Of a DNA stretch of 45,593 nucleotides, positions 3,317 to 25,362 are shown piece after piece (the stretch's first letter is position 1; each line of letters begins with the position of its first letter). Source of the stretch: Halieaceae bacterium (GTDB lineage: Bacteria > Pseudomonadota > Gammaproteobacteria > Pseudomonadales > Halieaceae); assembly GCA_023253715.1 (NCBI GenBank), contig JALRFH010000023.1, positions 1 to 45,593 on the forward strand, written 5' to 3'. The translations under genes and the position numbers were made by a program. The notes below the pieces were generated by a model. It did no database searches and was not told the origin of the DNA. It was given only the letters and a program-made list of their open reading frames with translations.

Positions 3317-4033
3317 CTAGACTTCCACGTTGTGGTATACGTTTTGGACGTCATCGAGATCATTGAGCATGTCGACAAAACGGTCAAACATGTCGACATC
3401 ATCGCCCTCTAAAGTCGTTGTATTTTGAGCAATGAATTGTATTTCGTCTACTTCGTAATCCATCTCACCGAGAGCTTCCGCTAGCGCTTGTTTGGCTTTG
3501 AATGAATCGGTGTGCGGAGCGAAAACGGTAATCATCCCATCTTCATTTTCGATATCAGTGACGTCAACATCAGACATCAGAAGCGCTTCAAGCACCGCCT
3601 CTTCGTCCTCGCAGGGAAACTTCAAAATACACAAGTGGTCAAACATGTGACTCACAGCGCCCTGAGAACCTATTTTTGACTTGGTTTTGGTAAAACAGAA
3701 CCGCACATCCCCGAACGTTCTGTTGGGGTTGTCCGTCAAGCATTCGATAATCACCATGCAATTACCAGGTCCGTAGCCCTCGTAGCGAGCGACTTCGAAG
3801 TTTTCACCGGCACCGCCTTTCGCTTTATCGATTGCTTTCTCAATAACGTGCGCTGGAACTTGGTCTTTTTTGGCTCGATCAATGATGCTGCGCAGTGCGA
3901 GATTGCCGTGCGGGTCCGTACCGCCTGATTTAGCTGACACGTAGATCTCACGCGCATATTTACTGTAAACCTTGGCCTTTTGGTCCGAGGTCTTAGCCAT
4001 GGATTCTTTGCGGTTTTGGTAAGCTCTGCCCAT
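3317..4033 (-). CDS. YebC/PmpR family protein, YeeN-like
   Basis: Protein of 238 residues in the YebC/PmpR family (TACO1-like). These are small acidic proteins long annotated as transcription regulators, some of which are now linked to translation through difficult sequences. The start at 4033 is chosen because the protein then begins MGRAYQ, matching the MGRxxxx opening of the YeeN branch. The reading frame stays open further upstream only because it runs through the tRNA gene. The body shows the family's KAIDKAKGG and RYEGYGPG segments and ends with the usual [10 protein letters not shown]. It begins 33 bases after the end of tRNA-Ser on the same strand, so it may share that transcript. Confidence 0.9.
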
Positions 4034-4066
4034 AGTTGTGTCCGTGCTTATTGATCGTGAGCAATT

Positions 4067-4154
4067 TGGCGGTGAGGGAGGGATTCGAACCCTCGGTACG
4101 TTTCCGTACACACACTTTCCAGGCGTGCGCCTTCGACCACTCGGCCACCTCACC
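4067..4154 (-). tRNA. tRNA-Ser (anticodon GGA)
   Basis: An 88-base cloverleaf with acceptor pairs GGTGAGG/CCTCACC, an encoded CCA end (complement of 4067-4069), the T-loop GGTTCGAATCC, a long variable arm typical of serine tRNAs, and anticodon GGA within CTGGAAA. It reads UCC/UCU serine codons. In E. coli the equivalent tRNA (serW) lies between clpA and infA; here it is about 30 kb away from that pair, directly upstream of the YebC-family gene. Confidence 0.95.
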
Positions 4155-4274
4155 AGCGGCGCGTAACCCAACAGAATGAGAATCTGAAATTTCATTGGCC
4201 CAAAAAACACTTATGTTACTCAGGTAAACACGGTATGCTTCAGCGTGTTTGGTTCAAAGAGAGTAAGCCCAATC

Positions 4275-15281: not shown

Positions 15282-16616
15282 TCACACAAGGATTTTTGAC
15301 AGTTTGTCAAAGGTCTCCTGATATTCCTCTTCGGCTATAGAGTCAGAAACAATCCCACCACCGCCCCAAACGCGAGCGAGGCCGTCGCTCACGCTGATTG
15401 TGCGAATGGCTATATTAGAGGTAAAACTGCCGTGGTTAGAAAGTGAAAAAACGCTACCACAATAGATTCCACGGCTAGACGGCTCGAGTTCACGAATAAT
15501 CTCCATCGAGCGCTTTTTTGGCGCACCCGTTATTGATCCTCCTGGGAATACGGCTTTGAGCGCATCGATCGGGGTCTTGCCAGGCGCAAGCACGCCTCGT
15601 ATTTCGCTGACCAAATGATGCACGCTAGGGTAGGACTGTAATTCACACAAGGCGTCTACGCGAATCGAACCTGGGATGCATACCCGACCAAAGTCATTGC
15701 GGAGCAAATCGACGATCATGATATTCTCGGCCCGATTTTTCACCGAATGCGAGAGTTGAGTTGCAAGCTTCTTGTCGCGCTCATGGTCCTCACCCCGCGG
15801 GGATGTCCCCTTAATTGGCTGCGTAAATAAATGCCCCTGATCGGCCTTGATGAACAACTCAGGTGAAAAACACAAAATATCATCCAGCGCTGTATTTAGC
15901 AGACAGGCGCTGTAAGGAGCTTGATTGCTGCCACGTAAGGCTAAGTACATTGGCCAAAGTGTATGGTTGAAGTCGGCTTCAAAACGTTGAGCGTAGTTTA
16001 CCTGGTAGCTGTCGCCAGCCAGCAAATACTGCAGGATTCTGTCGATCGCGCGGTAGTAATGTGCTTGGGTCTCTCGAGCTTGCCAAGTGGGCTTAGTGAT
16101 AACCGCTTGAGAGCTTGGGGGAAGCGCGAGGTCATTGTTTAGTAAGCGCTCCTTGAGGCTGCCAGCAAATGCGTCAAGCTCCTGCCCATCATCTACCCAA
16201 TAGGTTGTTTGGGTATCATGATCGACGATCACTGCCCATGGGTGATAGGCAGCATAGGCGGTCGGGCGCTCGGTTTTTTCTGGTGCAGGCGAAATGTTCA
16301 TAAGCTCTTCGCCGAAATCGTAATACAGAGCCCCCAGCCAACCGCCAGCAAAGGGTAGGTGTGAGTTTTGTTGTAGCGCTCGCGCTCGATATCGTTCGTT
16401 CCAGTAGTCTAAAAAATCACTGGCGCTCCGTTCACCGTAGCGATGCACAAGGATCTCACGGGGTCTGCACGATAGTAGGCTGTACCGACCGTTGTGGCAT
16501 TGCGCCTCGGCGCTGTCGAGCCACACGAATCCTGGTTCATTCTGCAGCAGAGTGGCCAGCAAGACCGTTTGGTTCGGCGGTAAGTTAAGTTCGCGTAAGC
16601 GCATCAAAGTGGGCAT
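15282..16616 (-). CDS. pabB: Aminodeoxychorismate synthase component I (PabB)
   Basis: Chorismate-utilising enzyme of 444 residues that aminates chorismate for p-aminobenzoate and folate synthesis. The PabB-specific lysine is present in PIKGTSPRG, where TrpE has PIAGT. Other hallmarks are NYAQRFEAD, ENIMIVDLLRNDFGRV, FPGGSITGAPKKRSMEII and the C-terminal GGGIVSDS. No amidotransferase partner (pabA) is adjacent. It is transcribed away from the carboxylase operon. Confidence 0.92.
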   Translation of the reverse strand: MPTLMRLRELNLPPNQTVLLATLLQNEPGFVWLDSAEAQCHNGRYSLLSCRPREILVHRYGERSASDFLDYWNERYRARALQQNSHLPFAGGWLGALYYDFGEELMNISPAPEKTERPTAYAAYHPWAVIVDHDTQTTYWVDDGQELDAFAGSLKERLLNNDLALPPSSQAVITKPTWQARETQAHYYRAIDRILQYLLAGDSYQVNYAQRFEADFNHTLWPMYLALRGSNQAPYSACLLNTALDDILCFSPELFIKADQGHLFTQPIKGTSPRGEDHERDKKLATQLSHSVKNRAENIMIVDLLRNDFGRVCIPGSIRVDALCELQSYPSVHHLVSEIRGVLAPGKTPIDALKAVFPGGSITGAPKKRSMEIIRELEPSSRGIYCGSVFSLSNHGSFTSNIAIRTISVSDGLARVWGGGGIVSDSIAEEEYQETFDKLSKILV

Positions 16617-16858: not shown

Positions 16859-18592
16859 ATGAGCAAGCAAAATACAGATCAACTTGAGCCCAAGCTCTCG
16901 AATCCTTTTCAAGCGAAGCAGAGCAAGCAATTTTCGGTACCAGGCGCAATTGTCGGCGACCCTGGATTGTATGAAAAATCGCTAGAAGCGGGCTGGAATT
17001 TGCAACAGCGCCCTTATGTTGCGGCTGGCACCAAAGCCATCATGCGTCAACATCAGAAGAATCGCATGACAATTTGGGAACGCATCCAGTGTTTAACCGA
17101 CGGGCCGTTTACGGTGTTTTATCAAAACTGGGGGCCCAATTTAGATGGCGCCTCCCTAGTGACAGGCCTGATACAAGTGAACGGCCGCGACGTTGCGGTG
17201 TATGGTCATGACTTCACTGTGCGTGCTGGATCCATGGATGCGACCAACGGTAAAAAATTGGCCCGATTATTTGAACTTGCTGCGAAGCGCAAGATACCGG
17301 TCGTGGGCTTGAATGATTCGGCCGGCGCCTATATCCCGGCTGGGGTTGGCGGGCTTGATGGTTACGCGGATGCCTTTACTGCTCTCAGAAAAATTTCCGG
17401 CGTCGTTCCTAGCATCATGTGCATGTTTGGTTTTAACGCCGGTGGCGGCTCGTATTTGCCCCGCCAAGGTAGCTTCTTGATCCAACCCAACGAGACCTTC
17501 TTTGGGCTGACAGGGCCGGGTGTCGTGAAATCCGTTTTGGGCGAAGACGTGACACCTGATGAATTGGGTGGACCGAAAGTTCACTCGCAAAGCGGCGTTA
17601 CAGACTTTGTGGTACCAGACGAAGTGGCCGCGCTTCGCAAGGTGCGCGAGTTGCTAAATTACCTTCCCAGTCATGCGGGCGAGCTGGCCCCGGTTCAGGC
17701 GTCAAGTGATCCGCTGAGTAGAAAAACCTGGGATATCGATATATTGTTGAAGCAAGCGTTTAATTCGCCAACCGGCTTCAACACACCAATCGATATTAGT
17801 ATTTTGATCCAGCAGCTGTGCGATCACGGAGATTTTTTGGAAATCCAGCCCGAACGCGCTCGCAATACCATCACAGCTCTCGGTCGGATGGGTGGTAACG
17901 TTGTGGGTTTTGTTGCCAATAATTCGGCCGTTGCCTCTGGGCAAATTGATGTCGATGCTGCCTACAAAAATGCGCGCTTTATTCGTTTTTGCAATCTGTA
18001 CAACATCCCCATTATTTTTCTGGAGGATACCACCGGATTTTTACCGGGTCGTGAGCAGGAAAGTCGCGGCATTGTGCAGGCGGGTCGCGCCATGCTGGAT
18101 GCGATTGTTGACTTAAGAACACCGCGATTTCTCGTATTGGTGCGCAACGCCTTCGGCGGCGCCTATGCTTCTTACAACAACTATCCTACGGGAGCCGACT
18201 TCGTAGTCGCTTTGCCGACCACCCGAGTGGCAGTGATGGGGCCCGCGGGTGTGGAGTACGTCTATAAAGACGAACTTCGCAATATCCGCCAGTCGGTCAA
18301 ACACAGGATCGCGCAAGAGGCCGAAGCGCAGCGGGCGGCGGGCTTGAGTGAAGCTGAGGCACTCGATACGGCATCAACCTTGGTACAGGACTGGGTGAAA
18401 GCCGAAGAGCAATTGTTGGCGCAACGCTATGAACGCGAATTGATGAATCCGAACGAAGCCTTGAGCCTAGGCTCGATTTCCCAAATTGTGATGCCATCAG
18501 ATCTGCGGCAAGTACTGGGCGAACAAATGGCATTCTGCTTGCGTCATTACACCCCGGAGCCCATGGGCGGCGTTCAGCGCGAATTCCACTAA
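16859..18592 (+). CDS. Acyl-CoA carboxylase beta (carboxyltransferase), probably propionyl-CoA
   Basis: Carboxyltransferase of 577 residues with the two crotonase-fold halves of PccB/AccB-type subunits. The first half contains [32 protein letters not shown] and [21 protein letters not shown]. The second has [37 protein letters not shown] and [11 protein letters not shown]. It transfers CO2 from carboxybiotin to the acyl-CoA. Compared with classical PccB the first oxyanion region reads DSAGAYIP instead of DSGGARIQEG, and the protein is 40-60 residues longer, so it belongs to a divergent branch. Propionyl-CoA as substrate is inferred from the epimerase and mutase genes in the same operon. Confidence 0.88.
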
Positions 18593-18622
18593 GCACGTCG
18601 ACGATTTACAGAGGAATACACA

Positions 18623-21481
18623 GTGTCAAACGAATACTACTTAAAAAACCCCTTGATCCACAAAAATCGTCAGCTTCATAGCCATGCATCAGCGTGGGTA
18701 AAGCAGTTTGATTGTCGTGACCTTAGGCCCCTGATTATCTGTAGAGGCCCTATCCGTAAAGAGGCCATGGACGTGTTCAGCGAAATGGGGATTCAGGATT
18801 TCGGTATACTTTTGAGTGAAAAGGACTCCATCGTATACCAAGACGCCTTGGCGCCCGAACTTCGCGCGATTAAAGACCCAAATCACGTTCATCGCGTGCC
18901 CGATTACACAGGTGCTAATAAAGAAGAGCGCGAACAACGCATCGCTCAAATCATCGCGATTGCGCGCAATAATGGTTATAACTCCATTTTTGCCGGTTAT
19001 GGCTTTATGGCAGAGGACGAAATGATGGTCGCCGCCATGGAGAAAGCCGGCCTTAACTTTATTGGACCGTGCTCTAAAACCGTTCACGATGCCGGCCTTA
19101 AAGATGAAGCAAAGCGAACAGCATTGCGGGTTGGCGTGAGCGTAACCCCCGGTATCGATAATGGTACTGCGCTCACATTATTGAAGAAGTATCCGACCAT
19201 TCAGGCCTTAAAAGACCTGGTGCAGGCACAACAGCTGGCGCTTGATCCCACGCTGCTAGATCAAGCCGAGGTGTCGCTTGAAGACAAAGCCGATTTGGTG
19301 TTGCAGGCATCCTACGACAAGGGTATCGACTTGTACACGGTGGATGAATTATCGGAAACGCTAACCGAGGCGGTCATGCGTATGTACGCCGATTACCCCA
19401 GTAATCGTGTGCGTCTAAAAGCGATATCTGGCGGGGGAGGTAAGGGACAACGCATTCTCGCGGCGCCGTCAGCTTATGAGGGCGACGAATCTTCGAGAAT
19501 CGAGCAGGCAGCGAAAAAAACCCCTGAATTGATTCGTGAAATCTTAAATGAAGTCAAAGCCACTGGTGTAGGAGATAACAAGAATGTGCTGGTTGAGTTG
19601 AACATTGAAACAACACGCCACCAAGAGATTCAAGTTATCGGCAACGGCGAATGGTCGATGACGCTGGGCGGTCGCGATTGCTCGCTTCAGATGCATGAAC
19701 AAAAGCTGCTAGAAGTATCAGTTACTGTCGAGTCCTTGCAGGCGGCCATCGAGGAAGCTAGGCAGCAAGGGCGCGAAACGGAACAGCGGGTTTTAGAGCA
19801 AGATCTGAAAACCTTGACAGCGATGGAAAACGAAGCAGCACGTTTTGGCGAGGCTGTGGGACTTGATTCAGTGTCCACCTTCGAATGTATTGTCGATCGA
19901 GACAAGCACTTCTTCATGGAAATGAACACGCGAATTCAGGTGGAGCATCGCGTAACGGAATTGTGCTATGCGCTCAAGTTCGCCAATCCCGAAAATCCGA
20001 ATGATTTTTTTGTGGTTGAATCACTGGTAGAAGCCATGGTGTTATTAGCTGCGCACGGCCCGAAATTACCCAAGCCCGAACGTCTTCTTCGCTGTAATGA
20101 CAGCGTAGAAGCACGCTTGAACGCGACCAATAATGCGCTTCAGCCGTCAGCCGGAGGTGTTATTGAATATTGGAGTGATGCCATTGCGGGCGAGATTCGT
20201 GATGACCAAGGTATTTCTCTACACAACCCAGACACTGATGTGTTCATTAAATACACTTTGGCAGGCGCCTACGATTCGAATATCGCACTGCTGCTGACCG
20301 TGGGTGATACGCGCTTAGACACATACCAGCGTATGGCGGAAACCTTGCGACGTACCACCATTCGAGGCAAGGACTTAGCAACCAACTTGTCGTTTCACAA
20401 TGGACTGGTTAACTGGTTCATCGGCAACAACATTAACGCCCGACCCACCACGCGGTTCATCGTGCCTTACCTAACCTTAGTGGGTGAGGTTAAATCGTTG
20501 GCAGACAATATTGATCTTGATGCCGCCTGGAGCGCCCTCATGCAACACGTGACACGCGGCGCGGAAGGCAATGGCAAGGCGGCGTTAGAGGAGTGTATGA
20601 CCTTAAAGCAAACCTTATTGACGCGTCCGGTCGCCGCACTTTTGCAAGATCCGCACGCTTTAAGCGGGTGGTTGAGCATCCACGGAGACTGTGTGGGCTT
20701 AATCGGCGAGACGTTGGTGTGGAACGAGAACCCGGTTGAGCTGCTGGCAGATACATACGAGTTCTTGAATATGGGGTATCGTCCTGGGCAGGCGGCGTCA
20801 AGTATGATTTGGAGTCATGACAATGATTTACTGTCGGAAGCTAAACAATTTTATCAGGATTTGGATGACCGACTCGCCTGCGAAGACTGGATCGAGCTGT
20901 GCTCGGTATTGGATGAAGAATCCGCACCCGATGGCTCTGAAATCGATGGGCATTTGTGGGCGGCTGTACGATCCGCGCATTATGGGTATCAAGCTGGCAT
21001 GGATTTATTACTGCTGTTGCCGAAATTAGGCCAGCTAGCTGACTTCTATTCGTTGGCTGTGAATGATGATCTGACCATCGCTATTCCCGATCGCTTATTG
21101 GATACTGAGCATCAGGCGAAGATGGCCAAAGTATTAGCTCCGCCGCCAGCGGCGAAGGCCGATGAGATTCTCGCAGCTAGCGGTGGCATGTTTTATGGCC
21201 GAGAGAGCCCAGAGCACGCATTGTATGTGGAAGCGGGCTCGCATTTTGAGGCTGGGGATCCGCTTTACATCGTCGAAGTCATGAAGATGTTTAATAAGGT
21301 TTATGCGCCTTTTGCGGGTACCATTGACGAGGTGTTAATTGAGAAGGATGGTGTCATCATTCGTAAAGGGCAGCCTTTATTTAAAATTACACCCGATGAA
21401 AAAATCGAGATTGAAACACCAGAGCAAAAACAGGCGCGACAGCGCGTCAAGACCTCTGAGCTAATGCAATCCATACTGTAA
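18623..21481 (+). CDS. Acyl-CoA carboxylase alpha: biotin carboxylase plus biotin carrier, long divergent form
   Basis: Protein of 952 residues. In order it has a biotin-carboxylase N-domain (about 35-165, with FAGYGFMAEDE), an inserted segment (about 185-260), an ATP-grasp domain with SGGGGKGQ near 270 and EMNTRIQVEH near 432-441, a biotin-carboxylase C-domain, a linker (about 640-850), and a biotinyl domain with VEVMKMFN, putting the biotin on Lys888. Usual alpha subunits are 650-700 residues. Here the familiar EHPVTE reads EHRVTE, EAMKM reads EVMKM, and a 28-residue basic/acidic tail follows the biotinyl fold. It starts at GTG after GAGG. It charges biotin with CO2 for the beta subunit upstream. 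Confidence 0.88.
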   Translation: MSNEYYLKNPLIHKNRQLHSHASAWVKQFDCRDLRPLIICRGPIRKEAMDVFSEMGIQDFGILLSEKDSIVYQDALAPELRAIKDPNHVHRVPDYTGANKEEREQRIAQIIAIARNNGYNSIFAGYGFMAEDEMMVAAMEKAGLNFIGPCSKTVHDAGLKDEAKRTALRVGVSVTPGIDNGTALTLLKKYPTIQALKDLVQAQQLALDPTLLDQAEVSLEDKADLVLQASYDKGIDLYTVDELSETLTEAVMRMYADYPSNRVRLKAISGGGGKGQRILAAPSAYEGDESSRIEQAAKKTPELIREILNEVKATGVGDNKNVLVELNIETTRHQEIQVIGNGEWSMTLGGRDCSLQMHEQKLLEVSVTVESLQAAIEEARQQGRETEQRVLEQDLKTLTAMENEAARFGEAVGLDSVSTFECIVDRDKHFFMEMNTRIQVEHRVTELCYALKFANPENPNDFFVVESLVEAMVLLAAHGPKLPKPERLLRCNDSVEARLNATNNALQPSAGGVIEYWSDAIAGEIRDDQGISLHNPDTDVFIKYTLAGAYDSNIALLLTVGDTRLDTYQRMAETLRRTTIRGKDLATNLSFHNGLVNWFIGNNINARPTTRFIVPYLTLVGEVKSLADNIDLDAAWSALMQHVTRGAEGNGKAALEECMTLKQTLLTRPVAALLQDPHALSGWLSIHGDCVGLIGETLVWNENPVELLADTYEFLNMGYRPGQAASSMIWSHDNDLLSEAKQFYQDLDDRLACEDWIELCSVLDEESAPDGSEIDGHLWAAVRSAHYGYQAGMDLLLLLPKLGQLADFYSLAVNDDLTIAIPDRLLDTEHQAKMAKVLAPPPAAKADEILAASGGMFYGRESPEHALYVEAGSHFEAGDPLYIVEVMKMFNKVYAPFAGTIDEVLIEKDGVIIRKGQPLFKITPDEKIEIETPEQKQARQRVKTSELMQSIL

Positions 21482-21490
21482 GGACGTGTC

Positions 21491-21904
21491 ATGATTACGG
21501 GTTTAGATCATATCGCTATAGCGGTGCCAGACTTAGAAGCTGCCATCAAACGATTCATGGAAGATTTCGGTTTGCCCTATGAAGGCACAGAGGAGGTTAT
21601 CTCTGCGAAAACCACCACCGCGTTCTTCCCTCTACCCCCCACGAGTATTGAGCTTGTGCACCCTCTGAACGGCGAGGGACCGATCGCAGGCTATCTTGAA
21701 AAACGGGGCGGGGGCATACACCACCTCTGCTTCCGAACGGATAATATTCAAGACGACGTTGAGCGTCTGCGCGCTAAGGGCTACCAGTTTATTGGCGATG
21801 CGCCCGCACCCGGGGCGCACGGTTCTACCGTGATTTTCATCCATCCTAAAAGCTGTGGCGGCGTGTTAATCGAGTTAAGCCAGCCAGCCCACGAGCATAA
21901 ATAA
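21491..21904 (+). CDS. mce: Methylmalonyl-CoA epimerase
   Basis: Vicinal-oxygen-chelate fold enzyme of 137 residues, the usual length. It interconverts (S)- and (R)-methylmalonyl-CoA. It begins GLDHIAIAV, with the first metal histidine at residue 7. The second repeat supplies [12 protein letters not shown], and the C-terminal [12 protein letters not shown] carries the conserved glutamate. It starts nine bases after the carboxylase alpha stop, with AAGGA as ribosome-binding site, and sits exactly between its two pathway partners. Confidence 0.94.
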
Positions 21905-21917
21905 GCAGGGACCGATC

Positions 21918-24077
21918 ATGAGTGATTCAATTTACGACCCCAACCAAGCGACCCCCGACAACTGGAAAACCGTGGCCGAGTCGCAAATGCGCGGTAAGTC
22001 GGTAGACGATCTGGTTTGGCATACCCCCGAGGACATTGATGTAAAGCCACTGTACACGATGGAAGATCTTGATGGGCTGCAATACGTCAACACCATGCCT
22101 GGGATGTCACCCTACATTCGCGGCCCGCAAGCCACGATGTACGCTGGACGTCCTTGGACAATCCGGCAGTATGCGGGATTTTCGACCGCAGAAGAATCCA
22201 ACGCTTTTTATCGAAAGGCACTAGCGGCAGGTGGGCAGGGCATTTCGGTCGCGTTCGACTTGGCGACACACCGAGGTTACGATTCTGATCACCCTAGGGT
22301 GATGGGCGACGTTGGCAAAGCCGGTGTTGCGATCGACTCGGTCGAGGATATGAAGATCCTATTCGATGGCATTCCCCTGGATAAAGTGTCCGTTTCAATG
22401 ACAATGAACGGCGCCGTCTTACCCGTGCTTGCTGGCTACATTGTGTCGGCAGAGGAGCAGGGGGTTACACCTGATCAATTAGCGGGGACCATACAAAACG
22501 ACATCTTGAAAGAATTTATGGTGCGCAACACCTACATTTACCCGCCTGCGCCGAGTATGCGAATCATTGGTGACATTATCGCCTATTGTTCTGAGAATAT
22601 GCCCAAGTTTAATACCATTAGCATATCGGGCTATCACATCCAGGAAGCCGGAGCCAACGCGGCCTTGGAGCTTGCTTATACCTTGGCCGATGGTAAGGAA
22701 TATATCCGAACAGCGATCGCGGCGGGATTAGATATCGACGCTTTTGCACCGCGCTTGTCGTTTTTCTGGGGCATTGGCATGAACTTCTACATGGAGATCG
22801 CCAAGCTCAGAGCAGCGCGCTTGTTGTGGGCGAAAATCGTGGCCGAGTTTAACCCTAAGAACCCAAAGAGTTCGATGCTAAGGACCCACAGTCAAACATC
22901 CGGTTGGTCCTTAACCGAACAAGATCCCTACAACAACGTCGTTCGTACCACGATCGAGGCAATGGCCGCGGTGTTTGGCGGAACCCAGTCCTTACATACG
23001 AACGCCTTGGATGAAGCCATCGCGTTACCCACTGAATTCTCCGCTCGTATTGCGCGAAACACTCAGCTGATCATCCAAGAGGAGACGGGGATCACTAAGG
23101 TGGTCGATCCTTGGGGCGGGTCCTACTTCATGGAGAACTTAACCCAATCTATTGCGGATAAAGCCTGGGAATTAATTGAAGAGGTAGAGGCAGCGGGTGG
23201 TATGGCCAAAGCCATCGAAACCGGCATGCCGAAGTTAAAAATCGAAGAGGCCGCAGCGAAGAAACAGGCACGTATCGACCGGGGCGAAGACGTCATCGTC
23301 GGTGTAAACAAATACAAGACACAGACCGATGAAGAAGTCGATGTGTTATCGATCGACGATCAGGCCGTTCGCGAATCGCAAATCAGCCGCTTGCAGAGTA
23401 TTCGCGCAAGTCGTGACGAAGAAGCGGTGCAACAAGCATTATCTGATCTCAACCAGTGCGCTAAGGCCGGCGTCGGCAACCTGCTTGATCTCGCGGTTAA
23501 AGCCACTCGACTTCGAGCCACCGTGGGTGAAATTTCAGATGCGCTAGAGCGTGAATTTGGGCGCTTTAACGCGACCGCGCAAACGGTATCGGGCGTCTAT
23601 GGCGCCGCTTTTGATGAGGACGATGATTGGAAAATGATCAGCGCAGATATCGAACAGTTTATTAACGATTTTGGCCGACGGCCTAGAATGTTGGTCTGTA
23701 AGATGGGGCAGGATGGGCACGACCGCGGTGCTAAAGTTGTGGCCACAGCATTTGCTGATGTCGGTTTTGATGTCGATCTATCGCCGATGTTCTCGACGCC
23801 CCAAGAGGTCGCTAAGCAGGCCATCGAAAATGACGTGCATGTCGTAGGCGCTTCTTCGCTCGCAGCGGGGCACAAGACCCTCATTCCCGCACTGGTGGAG
23901 GAACTGCGGAAACAGGGTGCCGACGACATCGTGGTCATCGCGGGAGGCGTCATTCCCAAACAAGACTATCAGGCCCTTTATGACGCCGGCGTTCGTTGCA
24001 TTTTTGGGCCGGGTACACCCATTCCGGTTTCGGCGCGCGCGGTATTAGACGCGGTCAGAGAAACGCTGGCTGACTAA
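21918..24077 (+). CDS. Methylmalonyl-CoA mutase, single-chain large form
   Basis: Adenosylcobalamin-dependent mutase of 719 residues that converts (R)-methylmalonyl-CoA to succinyl-CoA. The TIM-barrel domain begins with [21 protein letters not shown] and includes [23 protein letters not shown] and [16 protein letters not shown]. The C-terminal B12-binding domain has the base-off motif DGHDRG at about 600, with the lower-ligand histidine, and continues to VIPKQDY. It is a complete homodimer-type enzyme and needs no small subunit. I see no cobalamin riboswitch in the 13-base space before it. Confidence 0.96.
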
Positions 24078-25034
24078 ATGATGTTGACGCCCGAGGCGAT
24101 ACGGTCCGGCCAACGCCGTGCACTGGCAAAGGCAATTACTTTGATTGAGAGTACTCGAGATCAGGATCGAGAGCAGGCACAAAGCTTGCTCGGTGAACTA
24201 CTGCCGCACACGGGCAACAGCGTTCGCATCGGAATCACGGGCGTGCCAGGTGTTGGCAAGTCCACCTTTATCGAAGCCTTTGGCTTACATCTCTTATCGA
24301 TTGGCAAACGAGTTGCAGTACTGGCCGTTGACCCAAGCTCCCCCATTGCGGGCGGGTCGATTTTGGGTGACAAGACACGCATGGAAGTGCTATCGCGCTC
24401 TGATGATGCCTTCATTCGACCAAGCCCGGCCGGCAGCGCGCTTGGCGGCGTAGCGCAAAAAACCCGGGAAACCATGTTGTTATGTGAAGCCGCCGGTTAC
24501 GATGTCATCTTGGTCGAAACGGTGGGCGTGGGGCAATCGGAACATCAAGTGGCTGGCATGGTCGACTTTTTTGTGTTGTTGATGCTGCCCGGCGCTGGAG
24601 ACGAGTTGCAGGGGATAAAGAAGGGGATTTTAGAACTCGCGGATGCGTTAGTGATTAACAAGGCAGACGGGGAGAGTCTTGGGTTGGCCGAGCAAGCCAA
24701 ACGACACTATCAAAACGCGATGCACCTGCTCAAACATAATGGCTTTTGGACACCCCAAGTTCGAACCTGCTCGGCGCTGCATACCCAGGGTATTGGTGAT
24801 ATTTGGGAGATGATCACCGACTACTGCCAGCAAGCAAAAGCCAATGGCAGCTTGCAAGCCGATCGTCACGCTCAGCGTTTACACTGGATGCATCAATTAA
24901 TTCGGGAGGGATTAGAGGCGAAACTTCGTGCAAATCCACAAGTCAAAGCCCTGTTGCCCGAGTTGGAAAAAGCGGTCGCGGAGCAAGGAGTCACCACCTA
25001 TACCGCGGCGAGGCAAATACTGGATCTGATCTAA
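24078..25034 (+). CDS. meaB: Methylmalonyl-CoA mutase chaperone GTPase MeaB
   Basis: G3E GTPase of 318 residues (MeaB/ArgK family) that gates cofactor loading and protects the mutase from inactivation. The P-loop GVPGVGKST lies near residues 55-63, followed by VDPSSPIAGGSILGDKTRM, ETVGVGQSE and the base-recognition NKADG. The ATG directly follows the mutase stop codon with no spacer, so expression is tightly coupled to its client. Confidence 0.95.
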   Translation: MMLTPEAIRSGQRRALAKAITLIESTRDQDREQAQSLLGELLPHTGNSVRIGITGVPGVGKSTFIEAFGLHLLSIGKRVAVLAVDPSSPIAGGSILGDKTRMEVLSRSDDAFIRPSPAGSALGGVAQKTRETMLLCEAAGYDVILVETVGVGQSEHQVAGMVDFFVLLMLPGAGDELQGIKKGILELADALVINKADGESLGLAEQAKRHYQNAMHLLKHNGFWTPQVRTCSALHTQGIGDIWEMITDYCQQAKANGSLQADRHAQRLHWMHQLIREGLEAKLRANPQVKALLPELEKAVAEQGVTTYTAARQILDLI

Positions 25035-25047
25035 ATCGAGGTTTGCA

Positions 25048-25362
25048 ATGGACTTTTTACCTTTGGAGCGGCTTATCAACCTTTACGATGGCTACCGACA
25101 AGCCTTTAACGTAAATGGCGCAAACATCATTTTGTTGCAAGAAGGGGGGCAAGTGTTTGCCTTTTCACGCACTTGCCCACACCAGAACTATACCTTGGAT
25201 TATGCGCGGGTCAGCGACGGTTTGGTGGTGTGTTCAGCGCATGGGTTTGAATTCGATTTGCATCGAGGAGGCGCGCTGGTGAAGCCTTTGGGGTTTCCTT
25301 GTGCCGCGCTCAAAACCTACGATCTCGTCTACGAGGGAGACAGGATAGGGATTGTGTCTTAA
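25048..25362 (+). CDS. Rieske [2Fe-2S] protein
   Basis: Small soluble Rieske-fold protein of 104 residues. The cluster ligands are clear: Cys43-x-His45 (CPH) and Cys62-x2-His65 (CSAH). It resembles stand-alone ferredoxin components of dioxygenases and similar electron carriers. It begins 13 bases after meaB and is the last gene of the propionyl-CoA operon, although no oxygenase is encoded nearby. Its electron partner is unknown. Its stop overlaps the end of the convergent acetyltransferase gene by four bases. Confidence 0.88.
   Translation: MDFLPLERLINLYDGYRQAFNVNGANIILLQEGGQVFAFSRTCPHQNYTLDYARVSDGLVVCSAHGFEFDLHRGGALVKPLGFPCAALKTYDLVYEGDRIGIVS

Follow-up and report, generated by a model that had tools for sequence, protein, structure and literature searches.

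A long and divergent carboxylase alpha chain of Halieaceae, probably part of a propionyl-CoA carboxylase with an architecture of its own

Introduction

The question of this study is raised by one gene in a stretch of 45,593 nucleotides from a Halieaceae bacterium of the order Pseudomonadales (contig JALRFH010000023.1 of assembly GCA_023253715.1), hereafter called the window; the genome it belongs to has 2.70 Mb in 250 contigs and is 83% complete. The gene, at 18623-21481 on the forward strand, encodes the alpha chain of a biotin-dependent acyl-CoA carboxylase and follows the gene of its partner, the beta chain. The original prediction regarded the two as a separate carboxylase lineage whose architecture and substrate range may not be described. 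Is this so, and if it is, which reaction does the enzyme serve and how do its two chains come together?

In the known propionyl-CoA carboxylase (PCC), methylcrotonyl-CoA carboxylase (MCC) and geranyl-CoA carboxylase (GCC), the alpha chain is docked onto the beta chain by the so-called BT domain, according to PMC4673880 and PMC3199775. The former describes this domain in GCC as a helix inside an eight-stranded barrel, and section 9 of the latter gives 100-140 residues for ordinary linkers. In the literature searched, with most subscription papers outside its scope, no paper describing the alpha chain was found, which is in line with the suggestion of an undescribed architecture; the words propionyl and methylmalonyl have no occurrence in PMC10100682, PMC6440738 and PMC6304351.

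Our analysis supports, at the level of sequence, that alpha and beta form a separate lineage with its own architecture, and we consider it probable that together they are a two-subunit biotin-dependent PCC of the methylmalonyl-CoA route. The most telling feature is a region for which the original prediction had only a "long linker": judging by the structure models, the BT domain between the biotin carboxylase (BC) and biotinyl domains seems to be replaced by a helical domain. The genes, their conservation and co-occurrence, the folds of the models and the catalytic-type residues are directly supported by the data given below.

Results

The alpha chain is an intact and conserved gene

The features of the alpha gene in the window, all on the forward strand, are as follows.

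18610-18615, forward: AGAGGA, a ribosome-binding-like site 7 bases ahead of the GTG start of alpha (sequence)
18623-21481, forward: alpha subunit of 952 residues with BC, helical and biotinyl domains (open reading frame, Pfam, AlphaFold2 model with pLDDT 90.3 and pTM 0.89)
18713-20473, forward: BC domain, residues 31-617 (VIA-align 2 Z 40.3; catalytic-type residues invariant in 58 relatives)
19160-19405, forward: helical insert, residues 180-261, ahead of the ATP-grasp glycine loop (modelled as five helices; without a Pfam match at E<=1)
20474-21160, forward: helical linker domain, residues 618-846, at the place of the BT domain (own model; no Pfam family; profile match 0.4%)
21161-21394, forward: biotinyl (BCCP) domain, residues 847-924 (PF00364, 49.5 bits)
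21284-21286, forward: Lys888 of EVMKM, the expected biotin attachment site (invariant in 58 relatives)
21395-21478, forward: C-terminal tail, residues 925-952, with a helix at 933-951 in the model (AlphaFold2 model, alignment)

The open reading frame is as predicted, and its length is kept at 925-969 residues in 123 of 125 closed loci, some genomes being represented twice in this set; the two exceptions are L119 (740 residues, intact) and L126 (725 residues, a broken gene). Among 124 relatives, 201 of the 952 positions show at least 99% identity. Comparison of the window with L002 and L003, the nearest relatives tested, gives 0.03-0.18 for nonsynonymous change in alpha, and synonymous change that in each segment either has reached saturation or amounts to 1.4 per site or more; hence the insert, the linker and the tail are all under purifying selection. 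A chance reading frame or a pseudogene is thus ruled out by the kept length, the near-identical positions and the selection, and a fusion or frameshift artefact as the cause of the long chain is ruled out by the kept length itself. As for a recent foreign origin, the base composition of the locus gives no hint of it, and the neighbouring genes hold their place in many relatives. In the broken locus L126 (genome G918, 7 contigs, 99% complete) both beta and alpha are split into several frames, which may be true decay or sequencing error.

Three Pfam families, Biotin_carb_N, CPSase_L_D2 and Biotin_lipoyl, match alpha above their cut-offs and Biotin_carb_C falls slightly under (29.5 vs 32.4), and no listed family is reached in the NCBIfam scan, the best score being 172.2 against a cut-off of 965. 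Invariant in the 58 aligned relatives are K160, K266, the GGGGKG of 270-275, E325, H333, Q356, K361, E421, E433, N435, R437, Q439, V440, E441 and R498, which match known catalytic and ATP-binding residues of the E. coli biotin carboxylase. The two unusual motifs pointed out in the original prediction are widely shared in the family: in EVMKM the residues E885, M887, K888 and M889 are invariant and V886 is kept in at least 90%, and R443 of EHRVTE is invariant in 58 of 58. L119 reads EAMKM. As a sign of novelty EVMKM is weak.

A predicted helical domain where known PCCs have BT

The AlphaFold2 model of alpha was built from the alignment of the 58 relatives (37-74% identity). Its residues 31-617 superpose on E. 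coli 3g8c_A with a Z of 40.3 in VIA-align 2 and a root-mean-square deviation of 2.5, over 432 of 444 residues. The extra segment announced ahead of the glycine loop is present, its size being about 60-65 residues over classical chains by alignment and not about 75: from the PG of the N-domain to the last residue of the YP that precedes the loop, alpha has 82 residues vs about 21 in classical chains, and the span of residues 178-261 is 78-93 residues long in all 58 relatives. As the structure prediction proposed for checking now indicates, the insert forms five helices immediately ahead of the glycine-loop strand; no Pfam family matches its residues 180-261 at E<=1. The alignment places smaller extra stretches elsewhere in the BC domain.

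The long linker is borne out as well. The region 604-846 spans 231-259 residues in 57 of the 58 relatives (107 in L119), and the tail, given as 28 residues, has exactly this median, with a range of 1-45 and 1 in L119. When modelled by itself (602-846), the linker reaches a pLDDT of 94.8 and shows twelve helices of at least 4 residues plus one two-stranded hairpin, so that at the place of the BT domain of classical PCC the model is all helical apart from this hairpin. No Pfam family matches it at E<=1, PF18140 PCC_BT included, and PF18140 matches the control L164, a classical PccA of the same order, at 107.4 bits. By hhalign, the linker profile meets five classical PccAs with a probability of 0.4%, and the BC parts of the family meet the same chains with 100%. 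Against the PDB, Foldseek gave 188 matches at E<=10 and none at E<=0.001, the best (0.12) being a designed helical bundle, and a VIA-align 2 re-check of 986 Foldseek and lower-ranked chains gave a best Z of 3.7, under the level of a common helical arrangement. The lack of a PDB match is no proof of a new fold.

The exceptional L119 keeps the insert (89 residues), has the 107-residue linker and is without the tail, and is the deepest row in both the alpha and the beta trees, with weak support in alpha (88/51 for the rest). It fits an order in which the insert came first and the helical domain and tail later, or else a loss in L119; a half-way form with the insert but without the helical domain or tail is possible. 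In the same neighbourhood (L119:1547-4261, forward strand, genome G787), Pfam finds MeaB (residues 20-254) fused to GGDEF (470-632) and EAL (658-886) in a reading frame of 905 residues, namely a cyclic di-GMP module on the mutase chaperone, which lies between methylmalonyl-CoA mutase (MCM) and the new beta and alpha.

The operon and the slot of the enzyme

The genes downstream of alpha in the window are the following.

21491-21904, forward: methylmalonyl-CoA epimerase (TIGR03081, 143.7 bits, cut-off 114.95)
21918-24077, forward: MCM, 719 residues (NF006944, 1298 bits, cut-off 876)
24078-25034, forward: MeaB, the mutase-associated GTPase (NF006958, 479.2 bits, cut-off 329)
25048-25362, forward: a small Rieske [2Fe-2S] protein after MeaB

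The alpha locus therefore has the methylmalonyl-CoA pathway neighbourhood of a classical PCC. A scan of named genomes gave 504 candidate stretches, the best 80 of which were used. Beta lies immediately 5' of alpha in 79 of these 80 and the epimerase 3' of it in 76, and where enough flank is at hand MCM is found in 63 of 63 and MeaB in 59 of 60. The carriers among the 80 include Halieaceae genera, Simiduia, Oleispira, Thalassolituus, Bermanella, Oleiphilus, Pseudomaricurvus and others.

With regard to its distribution, alpha occurs in all 25 near genomes of its own family and in 6 of the 13 that belong to other families of the order (38 near genomes in total); 22 of the own-family copies are single full-length pieces and those of G001, G003 and G020 are partial or in pieces. 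In the sample of the order it is present in 72 of 194 genomes and 33 of 97 genera. Only G198, besides the window's own genome, was found in 369 genomes of the class (E<=1e-40), and 398 genomes of the phylum gave no alpha beyond the own genome (E<=1e-25); used as a profile, the helical domain matched only the own genome among 299. Of the 1179 plasmid records that match the alpha query, none reaches 80% query coverage. The locus in G198 (L122), which belongs to another order, keeps the order of nucleotidase, thrH-like gene, beta, alpha, epimerase and MCM, an arrangement that points to ancient shared descent or to the block having been transferred as a unit.

Alpha goes together with MCM. Among the 194 genomes of the order, 70 have both, 2 alpha only, 7 MCM only and 115 neither (Fisher p 7e-42, ignoring shared ancestry). 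In the two alpha-only genomes, G819 and G842, the contig breaks off at alpha and what lies downstream is missing, and two single-contig genomes, G823 and G794, keep both genes at distances of 1.7 and 3.3 Mb. The MCM-only genomes comprise two of family f197, where the MCM matches are just 44-45% identical in 569-residue frames, and five of family f289. In one genome without the new enzyme (G562), the 569-residue mutase-like chain L178 has a MeaB-like gene adjoining.

The family f289 shows what stands in the place of the new enzyme when it is missing. In four of its five genomes (L163-L166), all of them without the new alpha, classical PccB and PccA lie between MCM and MeaB, and the PccB of L164 matches that of Ruegeria pomeroyi (3n6r_B) with 875 bits. 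Conversely, the PF01039 genes of 12 carriers of the new enzyme stay at or below 555 bits, vs 663-677 for the four PccBs of f289. These carriers have 34 PF01039 genes other than the new beta; 17 of them were placed in the tree, and none fell with PCC. Apart from the new beta, PF01039 finds nothing at E<=1e-30 in G784 (99% complete) or G798 (96%). The gene order in f289 and the lack of any overlap (0 of 12 carriers) thus indicate one slot, taken by either the new enzyme or classical PCC. A methylisocitrate lyase (PrpB) above its cut-off was met in 0 of 22 genomes. The operon and the co-occurrence of alpha with MCM leave the substrate less open than was first suggested, as both point to propionyl-CoA.

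The beta subunit and the choice of substrate

The beta gene presents these features in the window.

16859-18592, forward: carboxyltransferase (beta) subunit, 577 residues (PF01039, 353.6 bits; in the tree with PCC beta)
18170-18172, forward: Ala437, at the place of Asp422 of Streptomyces coelicolor PccB (alignment; invariant in 38 of 38 betas)
18284-18418, forward: extra, probably helical stretch near the C-terminus, about residues 476-520 (alignment)

Beta is 35% identical to a classical PccB of the same order. The glycine-rich motifs NAGGG and FGGAY are retained, and of DSAGAYIP, which the original prediction had called atypical, DSAGA is the same in all 38 betas and Y and I vary; the YIP part is a poor mark of novelty and nothing unusual in itself, as shown by DSGGAYLP or DSGGANLP in MCC-type betas. 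The C-terminal extra stretch, compared in 10 family and 9 other betas, is missing in classical PccB and differs among family members.

No NCBIfam family is reached by beta either. Its best match, mmdA (methylmalonyl-CoA decarboxylase alpha, 345.6 bits), might suggest a decarboxylase or a transcarboxylase working in reverse; the score is far under the cut-off of 998.8, alpha keeps an ATP-dependent BC core for which decarboxylases have no need, and among the operon genes read in the window there is no membrane subunit, so we regard this explanation as exceedingly improbable.

Another doubt concerns the pocket. The Asp conserved in propionyl-CoA-using carboxylases, as stated in PMC7835884, is an invariant Ala here, so that the substrate range may be other than that of a classical PCC. 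The same source reports that a change of this Asp to Ile broadened S. coelicolor PccB and made the Thermobifida fusca enzyme use more acetyl-CoA. One may thus think of a promiscuous short-chain acyl-CoA carboxylase working on acetyl-, propionyl- and butyryl-CoA rather than a dedicated PCC, all the more as Luminiphilus has the enzyme (L063 and others among the best 80 of 504) and a 3-hydroxypropionate/4-hydroxybutyrate (HP/HB) cycle has been proposed in eight Luminiphilus metagenome-assembled genomes (PMC9802188, section 10). However, the mutation data concern Ile and not Ala, an AccC-type biotin carboxylase (L179) is encoded separately in the genome of the window, and the operon, together with the mutase in 70 of 72 alpha genomes, speaks for propionyl-CoA; we think promiscuity of this kind unlikely.

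Kinship of the two chains

The trees that were proposed at the outset give beta a probable place and leave that of alpha loose. The family betas form one group against PCC and MCC/GCC (100/100) and join five PCC betas and one Streptomyces beta at 98/96.7, in a careful tree that omitted 7 of the 50 rows of a quick tree (L134, L148, L154, L171, L172, L173 and L184); the quick tree supports the PCC grouping with 86. The alpha trees used 15 of the 58 aligned alphas, with family residues 184-258 removed to keep the insert from shaping the outcome. Set against 26 other biotin carboxylases, the family alphas hold together at 100/100, and the best tree puts their very long stem beside pyruvate carboxylase and long-chain acyl-CoA carboxylase at 40/49. 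Grouping of alpha was not rejected with PCC (p 0.535), AccC (0.568), MCC/GCC (ten rows, 0.467) or urea carboxylase (0.505). With both chains in groups of their own and neither over an NCBIfam cut-off, the predicted separate lineage holds.

It may be asked whether alpha is just a classical PCC alpha that evolved fast, its BC and BT-type linker altered beyond recognition and enlarged by insertions. The unrejected grouping with PCC, the beta partner that groups with PCC, and the linker of the deep L119, whose 107 residues are near the ordinary length (PMC3199775, section 9), could be read in this way. Nevertheless, grouping with AccC or urea carboxylase is likewise not rejected, the linker and BC profiles part sharply against classical PccAs (0.4% vs 100%), and the model, with twelve helices and one hairpin, is unlike the barrel that PMC4673880 describes for GCC. 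We hold such an origin to be conceivable, although somewhat unlikely. A third holoenzyme design, in which a deep separate BC lineage joined a PCC-type carboxyltransferase through a new helical docking fold instead of the BT domain or epsilon subunit of other enzymes, and with Ala for Asp took both acetyl- and propionyl-CoA as the HP/HB carboxylase of Luminiphilus, is a speculative idea to which we give little credit.

Discussion

Two marks of a classical PCC, the BT domain and the pocket Asp, were looked for without being found, and for this reason we do not class the enzyme as one. A PCC of another build is still the probable reading, and several points weigh against it or against parts of it. 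The Asp that follows GGAY in PCC is Ala437 in all 38 betas. Grouping of beta with MCC/GCC is barely not rejected (p 0.0508). Glu359 of alpha stands at the place of the classical His (His236 in E. coli), where the alignment has Asn in Sinorhizobium meliloti PCC, a pyruvate carboxylase and a urea carboxylase. The GCC-like alpha of the window's genome (L168) has no PF18140 match either, and as GCC has a BT domain, the absence of this match alone proves little about BT loss. L070 and L123 combine the full alpha linker with a short beta insert, which does not favour docking between the two. The co-occurrence counts are not independent, related genomes sharing ancestry. The fifth f289 genome, G856, has MCM and MeaB with no adjoining PCC and no new enzyme, and its sole PF01039 gene scores like MCC; MCM is thus not always paired with a PCC. 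Finally, a PrpB-like match below cut-off occurs in 7 of 22 genomes, G784 included.

Taking the enzyme as a PCC, we infer its activity, propionyl-CoA as its main substrate and the manner of its docking as follows. The alpha core would carboxylate biotin on Lys888 at the expense of ATP and bicarbonate, and the biotinyl domain would ferry the carboxyl group to beta, which would transfer it to propionyl-CoA. The epimerase, the mutase and MeaB of the same operon would then lead methylmalonyl-CoA to succinyl-CoA. Instead of a BT domain, the helical domain would dock alpha to beta, with the helical insert beside the ATP-grasp lid and the helical tail as further additions. In this way, the new enzyme would hold the slot that classical PCC has in the neighbouring family.

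What does such an enzyme mean? In Table 1 of a 2011 survey (PMC3199775), 69 Gammaproteobacteria are listed without any PCC alpha or beta. This gap is no longer valid for classical PCC either, since the f289 genomes carry it, and the new enzyme, which 72 of the 194 genomes sampled from a single gammaproteobacterial order carry, would fill it for marine carriers such as Halieaceae, Simiduia, Oleispira, Thalassolituus and others. The gap stayed unfilled because neither chain reaches an NCBIfam cut-off, and a large rebuilt subunit goes unnamed by automatic annotation. As Luminiphilus carries the enzyme, the propionyl-CoA step of its HP/HB cycle would rest on it, which bears on the CO2 fixation cycle claimed there. 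Moreover, within a well-studied family of multi-enzyme complexes, the enzyme offers an apparent exchange of the docking domain that can be put to the test.

Some observations on the flanks may be added. The Rieske protein lies 3' of MeaB in many Halieaceae and is weakly conserved, mostly 33-48%. A pabB-like chorismate-binding gene (15282-16616, reverse strand) evolves much faster than its neighbours, with 63% identity to L069 vs 86-97% for the other operon and flank genes (Rieske and GNAT excepted) and about 31-45% in other relatives. A tRNA-Ser (GGA) at 4067-4154 on the reverse strand lies inside the 297-residue mechanical reading frame (3317-4210) of a YebC-like gene, the true start of which is therefore further in.

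Comparison with known systems

The closest likeness is to the two-subunit PCC (R. pomeroyi 3n6r; L163-L166 of f289), with which the enzyme shares the beta lineage, the operon with MCM and MeaB, and BC and biotinyl domains in a system of two separate chains. Unlike classical PCC, its alpha has 952 vs 663-677 residues from stop to stop, carries a helical insert, a helical domain and a tail, and gives no PCC_BT match, where L164 reaches 107.4 bits; its beta has Ala for Asp. With MCC and GCC (Pseudomonas aeruginosa 3u9r/3u9s, GCC 5ikl) it shares the split into alpha and beta and the Y/N-L-P-like wording near DSxGA of beta; unlike them, its beta stands outside their group in the best tree (p 0.0508 for the grouping), and the operon genes read include none of leucine or terpene catabolism. 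It resembles the Actinomycete acyl-CoA carboxylases with an epsilon subunit in that a BT-like element is missing and docking takes another way, as PMC3199775 describes for them, and it departs from them in that the helper is proposed to lie inside alpha, with no small epsilon-like gene among the listed operon genes. The single-chain long-chain acyl-CoA carboxylase (4rcn) likewise has BC and carboxyltransferase parts of the same superfamilies, joined there in one chain and encoded here by two genes.

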